The notes beneath the pieces were generated by a model that did no database searches, was not told where the DNA came from, and saw only the letters and a program-made list of their open reading frames with translations. From Salipiger sp. H15 (GTDB lineage Bacteria > Pseudomonadota > Alphaproteobacteria > Rhodobacterales > Rhodobacteraceae): DNA of 64,000 bases. How positions within the stretch are numbered: the stretch's first letter is position 1; every line of letters starts with the position of its first letter. The position numbers were made by a program, and so were the translations under genes. The DNA lies in assembly GCF_040409955.1 (NCBI RefSeq), contig NZ_CP123385.1, forward strand, positions 186,001-250,000. Direction: 5' to 3'. Positions 1 to 6,746 of the stretch are shown here, piece after piece.

Positions 1-1357
1 GCTTGGTGGTGAAGAGCGGGTCGAAGATGCGGCCGCGGATGTCCTTCGGCACGCCCGGACCGTCGTCCGAGACACGCAGCTCGACCCTCTGCGCGGCGGG
101 ATCATGGCTCAGCGCGATGTCGATGCGCCCGCCCGTGCCGCTTTCGCGGATCGCCTGATCGGCGTTGGTGACAAGGTTGATGACCACCTGCGCGATCTGG
201 TGGGCGTCGCCGCGCACCGGCGGCAAGTCCGGCGCGACGGCGACATGCACCTCGGCCCCCAGCCCCTCGGCGCTCTGCTGGAGCGCGCCCACCGCGGTCT
301 CGACCGTCTCGGCAATGTCCATGGGCACCAGCCGCGCGGGCTGCTGCCGGGCCATGGCGAGGAAGGATTTCACGATCCGGGCGCAGCGCTCGGCGGCATC
401 CGAGATCTTCTCGACCCGGCGCAGCACGTCATCCGAGATCTCCTCGTCGCGCAGCATCAGCGCGTGACCGACGACCACCGACAGCGGGTTGTTGAGCTCA
501 TGCGCCACCCCCGCCAAGAGCTCGCCAAGCGCCGACATCTTCTCGGCCTGGAAGATCTGCTCGCGCTGCGCGGCGAGGCGGCGGCGCAGGTCGACTTCCT
601 TGGACACGTCCACCGTCGACGAGACCAGCACGTCCTCGCCCCGGTACTGGATCAGCCGCGCCGAGACGAGGCTGGGAAAGCGCGCGCCATCCGCCCGCAC
701 GCCGGTCACCGGCATGTCGTCGACCCGCCCGTCGGGCAGCACGGCGGTGATGAAATCCGCCCGCTCGGCGCGCGAGGCGAAATGCGCGTGGGTGTGGGCG
801 GCGGTGCCCAGAAGCTCGGTGGCGGCGGGCGAGCGGTAGATCACCTCGCCGTCGCCGACGCGCGACATGATGATGTTGGCCGGGCAGCTTTCCAGCACCT
901 TGCGCACCAGCTGGTCGGCGGCGCGCTCGGTCTCCTCGAGCGCGCGGCGCTCGGTGACGTCGGTCTGCACCAGCACGAAGCCGCCCGCCGCGGTGCTGCG
1001 CAGCAGGAACTCGCTGTCGCGGTCACTGCTTGCGACCTCGAGCGGCGTCACCATCCAGTCACCGCCCGCCAGCCGCGCCTCCATGAAGGAGAGCCGCTCG
1101 GCATCCTCGGCGCGCAGCCCGCCGCGCAGCACCCATTCGCGCAGCAGCAGCGACCAGTCGAGCCCCTCGGACAGCAGGTCGGCGACGGCGGGGTTCATCT
1201 CGGCAAAGCCCGCGTTGAAGCGCAGCAGCACGGCGTTCTCGTCGAAGATCGCCAGCCCCTCGGACAGCGCGTCGATCACCTCCTCGAGCATGTCGGCGGG
1301 GCGGCGGCGCGATCCGTCCCCCGCTTCCGGCACCGAGGGATCGAAGCGCACCGCCAT
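1..1357 (-). CDS. PAS-domain sensor histidine kinase (3' end outside window)
   Basis: The visible 452 residues begin with ATG one base after the stop of the cyclase gene, so the two are almost certainly co-transcribed. The N-terminal half reads as two PAS-like sensing modules (about residues 20-125 and 140-240; 'VLVQTDVTERR' and 'VLVSSTVDVSKEVDL' are typical PAS ends). Then follow a dimerisation/phosphotransfer helix with the H-box 'GVAHELNNPLSVV', an N-box 'QVVINLVTNADQAI', the G1 box 'DDGPGVP' and 'RIFDPLFTTK', where the window ends. No membrane segment or signal peptide is seen, so it should be a cytoplasmic kinase. The partner regulator is not in the window. Its position after a globin and a cyclase suggests that it reads a gas or redox signal; that is inference. 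Confidence 0.93.
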   Translation of the reverse strand, partial: MAVRFDPSVPEAGDGSRRRPADMLEEVIDALSEGLAIFDENAVLLRFNAGFAEMNPAVADLLSEGLDWSLLLREWVLRGGLRAEDAERLSFMEARLAGGDWMVTPLEVASSDRDSEFLLRSTAAGGFVLVQTDVTERRALEETERAADQLVRKVLESCPANIIMSRVGDGEVIYRSPAATELLGTAAHTHAHFASRAERADFITAVLPDGRVDDMPVTGVRADGARFPSLVSARLIQYRGEDVLVSSTVDVSKEVDLRRRLAAQREQIFQAEKMSALGELLAGVAHELNNPLSVVVGHALMLRDEEISDDVLRRVEKISDAAERCARIVKSFLAMARQQPARLVPMDIAETVETAVGALQQSAEGLGAEVHVAVAPDLPPVRGDAHQIAQVVINLVTNADQAIRESGTGGRIDIALSHDPAAQRVELRVSDDGPGVPKDIRGRIFDPLFTTK

Positions 1358-1358
1358 C

Positions 1359-2408
1359 TCAGCGCTCCTGCGCCGCGCGCATCTCGGCGGCGATGCGGAA
1401 CACCGTCTCCTCGCGCCCGTCGGACAGGGTGATGCTGCCCGTCTCGGTGGCCGAGAACTGGTCGTCGAGCCGCTCGACCACCTCGCGGTTGCCGCAGATG
1501 GTCATCGGCTCGGCCTTGTAGCGCAGCTGGCTGGCGGTGATCACCGCCGGGCCGAAGACGTCGTAGATGTACTTCTGCACGCCGACGACCGAGCCCACCA
1601 CCGCGCCCGAGGCGATGCCGACCCGGCAGCGCCACTGGATCGGGTGGCTGGTGTTGCGCTGGTTGAGATAGCGCATGAATCGGATCGCGGCATTGGCCGC
1701 CGCCTGCGCATGGTCCTCGGTGGGATCTGGCAGGCCCGCGACGCCGATGTAGAGATCGCCCACCGCGCGGATCCGCGCGCAGCCGAACTGCTCGCCGATG
1801 CGGTCGAAGGCGGTGTAGATGTCGTTGAGCTCCGAGACGATCACCGCGGGCTCGTGCGCGCTGACCATCTCGGAAAAGCCGATGAAGTCGATGCAGACCA
1901 CCGAGACCGGGTCGTAGAGCCGGGGGGTGACGATGCCGAAGGTCTTGTATTCCTCGTAGACCGAGCGCGGCATCATGTTGAGCAGCAGCTTCTCGACCTG
2001 CTCCTTCTCGCGCTTGATCTCGCGGGTGTTGCGCTCGACCATCATGGAATAGCTGTCGATCATCGACTCCAGCTCCTTGATGCGCGAGATGTTCTGGCAC
2101 ACCAGCACCGCGATCGGCTCGTCCTCGTCGAGCGCCCGGTTGAAATCCATCGCCACGGTCATCGTGCGGCGGCGCAGGCGGAAGGTGGTTTCCGTGGTGT
2201 AGCGCCCCTCGGACGCGAGCGCGGCACGCAGCGCCTCGGTGTCGAAGTCCCGGAACTGGTCGAGCAGCTTCGAGCCCACCTCGATCTCGCCGAACCAGCC
2301 GCGGAACGTGTCGTTGCAGAAGCGCAGGCGCAGGCTCTGCAGGTCCAGAAGCGCAACCCCGACCCCGATCGCCCTCAGCAGCTGCTCGTTGATCGCGGCG
2401 ATGGTCAT
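1359..2408 (-). CDS. PAS + class III adenylate/guanylate cyclase-like protein
   Basis: 349 residues. The N-terminus (about 10-110) is a PAS-like fold, followed by a helical linker (about 110-150) and a class III nucleotide cyclase homology domain (about 160-300). The metal-binding aspartates are visible as Asp174 in 'VCIDFIGFSE' and Asp218 in 'AVGDLYIGV'. Asp283 in 'YDVFGP' corresponds to the base-selecting Asp of adenylate cyclases and Arg214 takes the place of the usual Lys. By hand alignment the transition-state Asn and Arg positions are Ile290 and Gln294, so normal activity is in doubt. No membrane segments. It lies 4 bp after the globin gene and 1 bp before the kinase. The product (cAMP or cGMP) cannot be decided by reading. 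Confidence 0.9.
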   Translation of the reverse strand: MTIAAINEQLLRAIGVGVALLDLQSLRLRFCNDTFRGWFGEIEVGSKLLDQFRDFDTEALRAALASEGRYTTETTFRLRRRTMTVAMDFNRALDEDEPIAVLVCQNISRIKELESMIDSYSMMVERNTREIKREKEQVEKLLLNMMPRSVYEEYKTFGIVTPRLYDPVSVVCIDFIGFSEMVSAHEPAVIVSELNDIYTAFDRIGEQFGCARIRAVGDLYIGVAGLPDPTEDHAQAAANAAIRFMRYLNQRNTSHPIQWRCRVGIASGAVVGSVVGVQKYIYDVFGPAVITASQLRYKAEPMTICGNREVVERLDDQFSATETGSITLSDGREETVFRIAAEMRAAQER

Positions 2409-2412
2409 GGCG

Positions 2413-2769
2413 CTACTCCGTCACCAGCCTGCGCCGCGCCTCGAAGGCGGCTAGGATCGCCTCCTGGTCCTCGGGCGAGACGCCGTGATCGGCGAGCGTC
2501 GCGCGCAGGAGGGACTGGAGCTTGTCGAAATGCAGCTGATGGATCTCGAGATGCGCGTGCATCTTGCGGATCTGCTCGTCGGTGTAGGAGGCCGGGCCGC
2601 CCATCAGCGACGAAACGAACTTGGTCTGGTGATCGACGATGCGCGCCATGTCGATCTCGTCGAAGAACGGGCCGACATCGTCGTCGTCGAGCAGCCGGTC
2701 ATATAGGTCGAGGACGATCTTGCTGACGACGGAGAAGCCGCCGTACTTGTCGAAAAGGGATTTCTCCAT
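2413..2769 (-). CDS. Group I truncated hemoglobin
   Basis: 118 residues, the usual length of a group I (N-type) truncated globin. The proximal haem ligand is His71 in 'RKMHAHLEI'. The distal pocket shows Tyr23 (B10) in 'LYDRLL' and Gln48 (E11) in 'DHQTKF', the pair typical of O2/NO-handling trHbN proteins. The family's Phe pair is in 'GPFFDEI' and 'LMGGP' ends helix E. The chosen ATG has a strong ribosome site (GGAGG, 5 bp away); a longer frame exists upstream but has no such site and would add a non-globin tail. It is the first gene of a three-gene operon with a nucleotide cyclase and a PAS kinase, which suggests a sensory or signalling role rather than plain NO detoxification (inference). 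Confidence 0.93.
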   Translation of the reverse strand: MEKSLFDKYGGFSVVSKIVLDLYDRLLDDDDVGPFFDEIDMARIVDHQTKFVSSLMGGPASYTDEQIRKMHAHLEIHQLHFDKLQSLLRATLADHGVSPEDQEAILAAFEARRRLVTE

Positions 2770-5908: not shown

Positions 5909-6079
5909 TCAGGCGGCCATCGGCAGGGAGGCGGGTTTCACCTCCGCTGCCGGGGTTTCGGCGAGCAGGCAGGAGCGGTCCCACCAGGCGCGGAAGTCGG
6001 CGAAGGTGTCGCGCATCGCGACGCGATCGAAGCCGGAGCCGTAGCTGGGCCGGGCGGCGGGGGCGGAGAAACGGGGCAT
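5909..6079 (-). CDS. Small protein of unknown function (56 aa)
   Basis: 56 codons starting MPRFSAPAARPSYGSG with a good AAGGA ribosome site 8 bp upstream. The centre 'DTFADFRAWWDRSCLLAE' contains a Trp pair and one Cys and probably forms a helix; the rest is rich in Ala and Pro. No signal peptide or membrane span. It lies 88 bp after the OsmC-like gene on the same strand and before a hairpin, so the two are likely co-transcribed. I recognise no family. Conserved operon position next to flavin oxygenases would suggest an accessory or partner protein (inference). Confidence 0.7.
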   Translation of the reverse strand: MPRFSAPAARPSYGSGFDRVAMRDTFADFRAWWDRSCLLAETPAAEVKPASLPMAA

Positions 6080-6167
6080 GGGTCTGTCCTTTCGGCAAAA
6101 GGGGTGTGGGGGGATTGGGGGGATTGGCCCGCGCCCCGGTCGGCGCGGGCGGTGCGTGTCGGAGGGA

Positions 6168-6746
6168 TCAGGCGGCCATCTCGACCGAGACCGGCACGCC
6201 GTTGCTGAGCACGTCGAAGACGGCGGAGCGGGCGACCGACTGTTCGACGATCTCGCGCAGCTTCTCCTGCGGGGCGTCGCCGCGGATCTTCACCGCCATG
6301 CGGATGCCGGCGAAGCCGTTGCGCACGGTCTTGTCGAGGCCGAGGATGCCGTTGAGGTTGATGTCGCCCTCGACCGCGGTCTCGACCGCGTGCAGCTTGA
6401 CCTGGCGGATCGAGGCGATGTTGCCGATCCCGGCGGTGATGCAGGCGGCGAGGCCCGCCAGCAGCAGCTCGACCGGGGTCACCCCGTTGTCGGCGCCGCA
6501 GAGCACCTGCGGGTGGTCACATTCGACGGCGTAGTCGCGGCGGTGCTGCATCTCCTGCATGGCGCCGTGGAAGCCGGTGAAGGCGGTGCGGCTGTGCGTG
6601 CCCGAAAGCCATTCGCCATTGGCGCGGAAGGTGAACTTGGCGATGTCGGGGGTGTCGCCGACCACGCCGAGCGTGGCGAGGAAGGTCGGGACGTCGACGC
6701 CGTTCATGGCGGTCTTGGCGGGCTTGTCGAGGGTCTGGGTGGTCAT
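6168..6746 (-). CDS. OsmC/Ohr-family protein
   Basis: 192 residues with the OsmC core: 'NGVTPVELLLAGLAACITAGI' is the central helix carrying the first conserved Cys. The second, peroxidatic-type Cys position near the C-terminus reads 'ARSAVFDVLSN', where Ser/Ala replaces Cys, so a classical organic-hydroperoxide cycle is unlikely; another Cys pair ('VECDHPQVLC') lies just before the central helix. N-terminal 45 residues extend beyond the usual domain. ATG has AGGAG 8 bp upstream. First gene of a minus-strand unit with the 56-aa gene and preceded by repeat copy C. A role in thiol or electrophile stress linked to the neighbouring oxygenases is plausible. Confidence 0.87.
   Translation of the reverse strand: MTTQTLDKPAKTAMNGVDVPTFLATLGVVGDTPDIAKFTFRANGEWLSGTHSRTAFTGFHGAMQEMQHRRDYAVECDHPQVLCGADNGVTPVELLLAGLAACITAGIGNIASIRQVKLHAVETAVEGDINLNGILGLDKTVRNGFAGIRMAVKIRGDAPQEKLREIVEQSVARSAVFDVLSNGVPVSVEMAA

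Follow-up and report, generated by a model that had tools for sequence, protein, structure and literature searches.

Soluble guanylyl cyclase (sGC), the animal NO receptor, carries H-NOX, PAS, helix, and class III cyclase domains on one chain. In globin-coupled sensors, a globin is fused to a cyclase or histidine kinase output; AfGcHK is reportedly such a pairing of a globin with a histidine kinase. For stand-alone H-NOX proteins, the partner kinase or cyclase is encoded nearby. Most discussion of truncated haemoglobins treats them as carriers or as enzymes of NO detoxification. HemAC-Lm is a globin-fused signalling enzyme according to the accessible passages of PMC12755159. Here we describe a locus of Salipiger sp. 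H15, in which a separate truncated haemoglobin (trHb) is encoded directly upstream of a PAS-helix-class III cyclase protein (CYC), which is followed by a hybrid histidine kinase (HK). The trHb-CYC pair is the conserved unit of this operon. Known systems include fused globin-cyclases, fused globin-kinases, and stand-alone H-NOX sensors; what is unusual here is an apparent change of output.

The window is the whole stretch of 64,000 nucleotides that was analysed, positions 186,001 to 250,000 of contig NZ_CP123385.1 (G000:C2:186001-250000), within a 6.1-Mb genome. The three genes are at its beginning, all on the minus strand. trHb (2413..2769) encodes a group-I truncated haemoglobin of 118 aa, which matches PF01152 (Bac_globin) at 61.4 bits, where the cut-off is 21. 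CYC (1359..2408) encodes 349 aa and matches PF00211 with 116.6 bits. HK is represented by its N-terminal 452 codons (1..1357), as it is cut by the window edge. The full HK (L003:9450-11357, with sequence beyond the window edge) has 635 aa and the domain order PAS-PAS-HisKA-HATPase-REC.

CYC shares with sGC the order of PAS, coiled helix, and class III cyclase, and haem-based gas sensing as in sGC is proposed here. It differs in that CYC is PAS-helix-cyclase alone and lacks H-NOX, the haem protein being a truncated haemoglobin on a chain of its own. The substrate positions in the CYC family are Lys or Arg with Asp, not the guanine-type pair of sGC, and transition-state residues are lost in the window CYC. 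As in globin-coupled sensors, the partner of the globin is a cyclase or histidine kinase output, but the globin is a 2/2 truncated haemoglobin on its own chain instead of a fused domain, and one operon contains two possible outputs. The arrangement resembles stand-alone H-NOX in that a separate haem sensor would act on a signalling enzyme in trans. It is distinguished by an unrelated haem-protein fold and by a PAS-helix-cyclase partner with constant adjacency.

Conservation of the trHb-CYC Pair

A search of named genomes returned 75 loci, 68 of which are family members with 50-95% identity. The remaining seven, L073-L079 with 35-40% identity, are distant cyclases lacking a trHb match and do not enter the family counts. 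All 68 family loci have trHb immediately upstream of CYC, at a spacing of -11 to +18 bp, and the two are separate reading frames there as in the window. At one locus (L036), the contig starts inside trHb, so trHb is partial. Of 385 genomes drawn across the class, 17 have CYC at E <= 1e-60, the own genome included, and trHb adjoins it in all 16 others, where 8-174 bp separate the end of the trHb match from the CYC match. A phylum-wide draw of 398 genomes gave three with CYC at E <= 1e-50, all of the same class. At some loci (e.g., L135, L141, L142, and L143), the pair is located between opposite-strand genes on both sides, based on crude open reading frame calling.

The reverse search with trHb at E <= 1e-15 gave 48 matches in 39 of the 385 class-wide genomes. 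Of the matches at E <= 1e-30, 16 out of 18 (own included) are beside CYC. Among 30 weaker matches, 12 were inspected with their locus; 11 are without CYC and one is with it, in a broken copy (G027). The earlier note on this DNA had proposed that the globin and the cyclase form a split version of a globin-coupled sensor, and named the separation of these genes in related genomes as the sign against it. As far as a conserved gene pair goes, the proposal has good support (68/68 family loci and 16/16 other CYC-bearing genomes of the class-wide draw), and the relatives speak in favour of trHb-CYC.

A fused trHb-cyclase protein was sought with a query joined from both proteins, for which the score of the trHb part alone was counted. 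None of the 75 candidates reached E <= 0.001, in a search that reaches solely relatives sharing exact 5-residue words. No description of the trHb-CYC pair was found in the open-licence papers searched, a scope outside which most subscription-journal papers fall, and the accessible passages of PMC4720485, PMC1592074, and PMC12755159 do not describe it.

Incomplete forms were also observed. L095 (G027) contains a broken trHb-CYC, with stops within CYC, a partial trHb match, and Gly for one metal Asp. In L129 (~5936-6373 in the trHb-strand orientation), trHb is followed by a 146-aa frame, which by eye is PAS-like with a coiled end and without the cyclase domain.

The trHb Pocket and the E-Helix Motif

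The closest solved chains to trHb are cyanoglobins and HbN. In the family alignment, every one of the 69 rows has the proximal His71, and Tyr23 and Gln48 occur in all 68 readable rows. With the proximal His, the distal Tyr B10, and Gln E11, the protein belongs to group I; the helix letters follow the HbN numbering. trHb would bind haem, with O2 or NO as the putative ligand.

Residues 46-51 of trHb, DHQTKF (2617..2634, minus strand), constitute an E-helix motif typical of CYC-linked trHbs. DHQ is seen in all 68 readable family rows and in all 17 other linked trHbs (16 from the class-wide draw and one from the phylum-wide draw), and in only one of 13 unlinked trHbs, which are those for which the surrounding locus was returned. 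The longer form DHQ[TS]K is seen in 64 of the 68 family rows and 17 of the 17 other linked trHbs, and in none of the 13 unlinked. The motif is a candidate docking face of trHb, and the CYC-linked globin looks dedicated to the pair. The genome encodes a second PF01152 globin (G000:C2:1260004-1260276, in L004; 29.8 bits).

It is possible, if unlikely, that trHb is instead a detoxifying enzyme, either NO dioxygenase or peroxidase, which is co-expressed as an effector with a stress-signalling cassette whose cyclase and kinase sense otherwise. The Tyr/Gln distal pocket is as in HbN, whose role is NO dioxygenase. Genes for OsmC-like proteins, CysK-glutaredoxin, and flavoproteins recur near the pair, and a second globin gene is downstream here. 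Such detoxification-type genes vary, however, whereas CYC is the constant neighbour, and the pair is also present in genomes without any of them. The presence of the E-helix motif in linked trHbs and its absence from unlinked ones also argue for a signalling role, as does the group-I trHb domain that other Alphaproteobacteria build into CheA.

CYC Architecture and Active Site

In the structure model, CYC consists of a PAS domain (residues 1-106), a long signalling helix from PAS to cyclase (residues 107-145; 1974..2090, minus strand), and a cyclase domain (~160-342). The PAS_8 match of 20.6 bits is slightly below the cut-off of 21.8. Membership of CYC in HNOBA was rejected; the match (18.8 bits against a cut-off of 23.4) covers the helix part alone. 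The ten best Foldseek matches to CYC are sGC chains. The likeness is not exclusive to sGC, as isolated cyclase domains reach higher Z. PAS-helix-cyclase is a common bacterial layout.

CYC has the cyclase fold of class III cyclases. The best solved match to its cyclase domain by sequence is Rv1625c (Cya), a mycobacterial adenylyl cyclase, in which no PAS domain was matched and for which we know of no globin partner. Aligned to Rv1625c, CYC keeps the metal Asp residues D174 and D218 and the substrate Asp D283. Where Rv1625c has Lys, Asn, and Arg, the window CYC has Arg214, Ile at codon 290 (1539..1541, minus strand), and Gln at codon 294 (1527..1529, minus strand). Both the transition-state Asn and the transition-state Arg of a typical adenylyl cyclase are thereby missing. 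The mapping of active-site residue classes to single Rv1625c residues is our assumption. The roles of the classes are as stated in the accessible part of PMC4886424. As far as the sequence tells, the window cyclase is probably impaired. The term "pseudocyclase" is absent from the open-licence literature searched.

HK Position and the State of the Cyclase Site

At 69 loci, six CYC residues were scored as canonical (DKDDNR) or otherwise. HK is directly downstream at 36 loci, divergent upstream at 23, not found within 12-17 kb at nine, and unscored at one. None of the 36 loci with HK downstream has the canonical site. It is present at 20 of the 23 loci with divergent HK and at all nine with no HK found in 12-17 kb. 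The downstream group includes L038, which has an upstream HK and a second, downstream one, and L016 and L052, where the HK match begins within the CYC end. Both upstream and downstream HKs are also present in L046, L048, and L051. L011 (Mangrovicoccus ximenensis), whose HK state is unscored and whose site is not canonical, was kept in the downstream-HK clade of 37 loci. Its CYC runs into unrelated sequence with no HK in the stretch examined, unlike its sister L010, which is due to either a rearrangement or an assembly fault.

In the tree of trHb and CYC, from which the six columns were removed, the 37 downstream-HK loci, L011 included, form one group (100/100). Salipiger and Alloyangia are the closest relatives at the trHb-CYC-HK locus. 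The tree requires three changes for site loss and three for HK state. L024/L025 and L063 represent the other two site losses, and their adjacent kinases are divergent. In a quick, unrooted tree of HK, the downstream HKs are on one side of a branch (36 of 62 rows), and the HK tree and the trHb-CYC tree show largely the same sub-clades. The kinase, which the earlier note had placed in the same relay, is co-inherited with trHb-CYC in one clade, but its tie is looser, as it is downstream at 36 of the 69 loci.

The canonical site is seen at 29 of the 32 loci outside the downstream-HK clade. At position 290, the clade shows Ile (16), Thr (7), Glu (6), Ala (4), Ser (2), Val (1), and Asn (1), and Asn is found at 29 of the 32 loci outside. 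Arg occupies position 294 at 20 of the 37 clade loci and at 29 of the 32 outside. In the 16 class-wide relatives, Asn and Arg are all kept; Lys is replaced by Arg in two, and Gly replaces a metal Asp in one broken copy.

The window HK contains HisKA, HATPase, and REC domains with their catalytic residues and is a hybrid histidine kinase. The phospho-acceptor His, the N-box Asn, and the Gly-box residues are intact in all 36 downstream HKs. The REC domain is missing in 12 of them.

Conservation and Selection in CYC

The mean CYC identity is nearly equal inside (0.66) and outside (0.67) the downstream-HK clade. The sites conserved at 90% or more are distributed differently. They are more numerous inside than outside the clade in the PAS domain (42 vs. 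21 of 106) and in the helix (47 vs. 35 of the 52 sites at 107-158), and fewer in the cyclase domain (70 vs. 81 of 141) and at the C-terminus (1 vs. 5 of 49). There are 142 sites with at least 90% conservation outside the clade, and 12 of them drop below 60% inside, including 176, 290, 294, and 295. Site 176 is two residues after the metal Asp174. The ratio of nonsynonymous to synonymous substitution rates (dN/dS) in the cyclase domain is 0.04-0.17 for seven overlapping pairs in the clade. Therefore, the CYC protein is maintained. We read this pattern as that of a kept signalling scaffold with relaxed catalysis.

The earlier note had expected two outputs, the cyclase and the kinase. In this genome, this is doubtful because both transition-state residues of CYC are gone (Asn to Ile and Arg to Gln). 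It is quite improbable that the two outputs run in parallel, with a window cyclase that is active but atypical, perhaps of relaxed specificity, and HK as the second output. The retained metal and substrate Asp residues and the purifying selection on the cyclase domain would agree with it, and Rv1900c, which has His for Asn, is an active cyclase according to the accessible part of PMC4886424. The window CYC, however, has lost Arg as well as Asn, and the seven residues seen at position 290 in the clade are more in keeping with relaxed constraint than with a new, fixed specificity. Mere co-regulation, in which HK senses by its own two PAS domains, the altered cyclase site marks trHb-CYC as an unrelated or declining passenger, and the gene order is historical, is highly improbable, given that the PAS and helix of the clade CYC are more conserved, not less, that the trHb pocket is retained, that dN/dS is low, and that the HK and trHb-CYC trees largely agree in their sub-clades.

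Gene Order and Operon Signals

The tight array of the three genes that the earlier note described is confirmed on the minus strand, with gaps of 4 bp between trHb and CYC and 1 bp between CYC and HK. Its claim of a strong ribosome site before the globin alone is wrong, as each of the three genes has a purine-rich site. GGAGG is 5 nt before the trHb start, as read from the sequence. GGAG (2416..2419, minus strand) is 7 nt before the CYC start and overlaps the trHb 3' end. AGGAG (1365..1369, minus strand) is 7 nt before the HK start, inside the CYC 3' end. A promoter or terminator between the genes would have spoken against a single operon; a consensus scan of both strands from the trHb start to the HK end, in which promoters were represented by the sigma-70 consensus only, revealed no promoter-like or terminator-like site. 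In the 5.4-kb scan, the single promoter-like site (0.4 expected by chance) is located before a single-domain globin gene.

Beyond the window, 3' of HK, are genes for an OmpR-type response regulator, a flavohaemoprotein-like single-domain globin, and a CysK-glutaredoxin fusion. The single-domain globin gene (L003:8228-8662) follows the response regulator, behind the promoter-like site, and has a match at 14 of the 69 family loci. Among the recurrent neighbours of trHb-CYC (window:3325-5860 and family flanks) are the CysK-glutaredoxin fusion (31/69), two flavoproteins (38/69 and 33/69), an OsmC-like protein (34 loci in a rough cluster count), and an alpha/beta hydrolase or methyltransferase. A plus-strand open frame of 49 codons and, after it, a GC-rich hairpin that has a short T-run are seen by eye at window:3066-3262, with the trHb promoter region on one side and the next gene on the other.

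In the Alphaproteobacterial loci L118, L120, L122, L123, and L124, a truncated-haemoglobin domain is within the chemotaxis kinase CheA. Four loci show the order Hpt, globin, and H-kinase dimerisation domain, in which the globin presumably occupies the usual place of the P2 domain. The CheA of L124, which is cut at its start, has two globin domains, of which the second adjoins the CheW domains. The globin-CheA fusion is not mentioned in the accessible passages of PMC3770913.

Discussion

We propose, with an even chance of being right, that trHb and the PAS-helix-cyclase form a split, sGC-like gas sensor, whose output passes to HK in the window clade. In the ancestral state, trHb would bind gas (O2 or NO) and dock CYC through its E-helix face. 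The docked trHb would shift the PAS-helix dimer, changing the output of the cyclase. Because of the Lys/Asp substrate pair, the ancestral product would most likely be cAMP. In the window clade, the same movement would be handed to HK and then to the OmpR-type regulator, and the single-domain globin gene may be among the targets of this regulator. The cyclase fold would probably now be a nucleotide-binding adaptor between trHb and HK.

More tentatively, when the kinase joined the operon, the cyclase may have given up catalysis and, as a nucleotide-binding adaptor, have come to signal the haem state to the kinase. With the same reserve, this switch from enzyme to adaptor may be preserved as a graded series: the pair alone, the pair with a divergent kinase, and the pair with a downstream kinase and an altered cyclase.

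Several observations weigh against the proposed split sensor and its change of output. The example of Rv1900c implies that the loss of Asn alone could be compatible with activity in the window CYC, and apart from the four sites named above, the clade-variable sites are no known catalytic positions. Two of the class-wide relatives retain Asn and Arg although a related HK is close by, divergent in L130 and upstream in L134, where it shares the strand; L024, L025, and L063 lost these residues without a downstream HK. Therefore, HK gain and site loss are not strictly coupled. The association between them offers one phylogenetically independent pair, and therefore has no statistical test. HK also brings its own PAS domains, and two of the 18 close trHbs (in G039 and G310) are without an adjoining CYC.

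If the split sensor proposed here is correct, its constant, sGC-like pairing makes this group of Alphaproteobacterial trHbs dedicated sensor subunits, and the pair would be a simple two-protein model for haem-to-cyclase signalling. The three states of the locus would allow a test, in living relatives, of how a signalling enzyme turns into an adaptor without catalysis as a new output is added.

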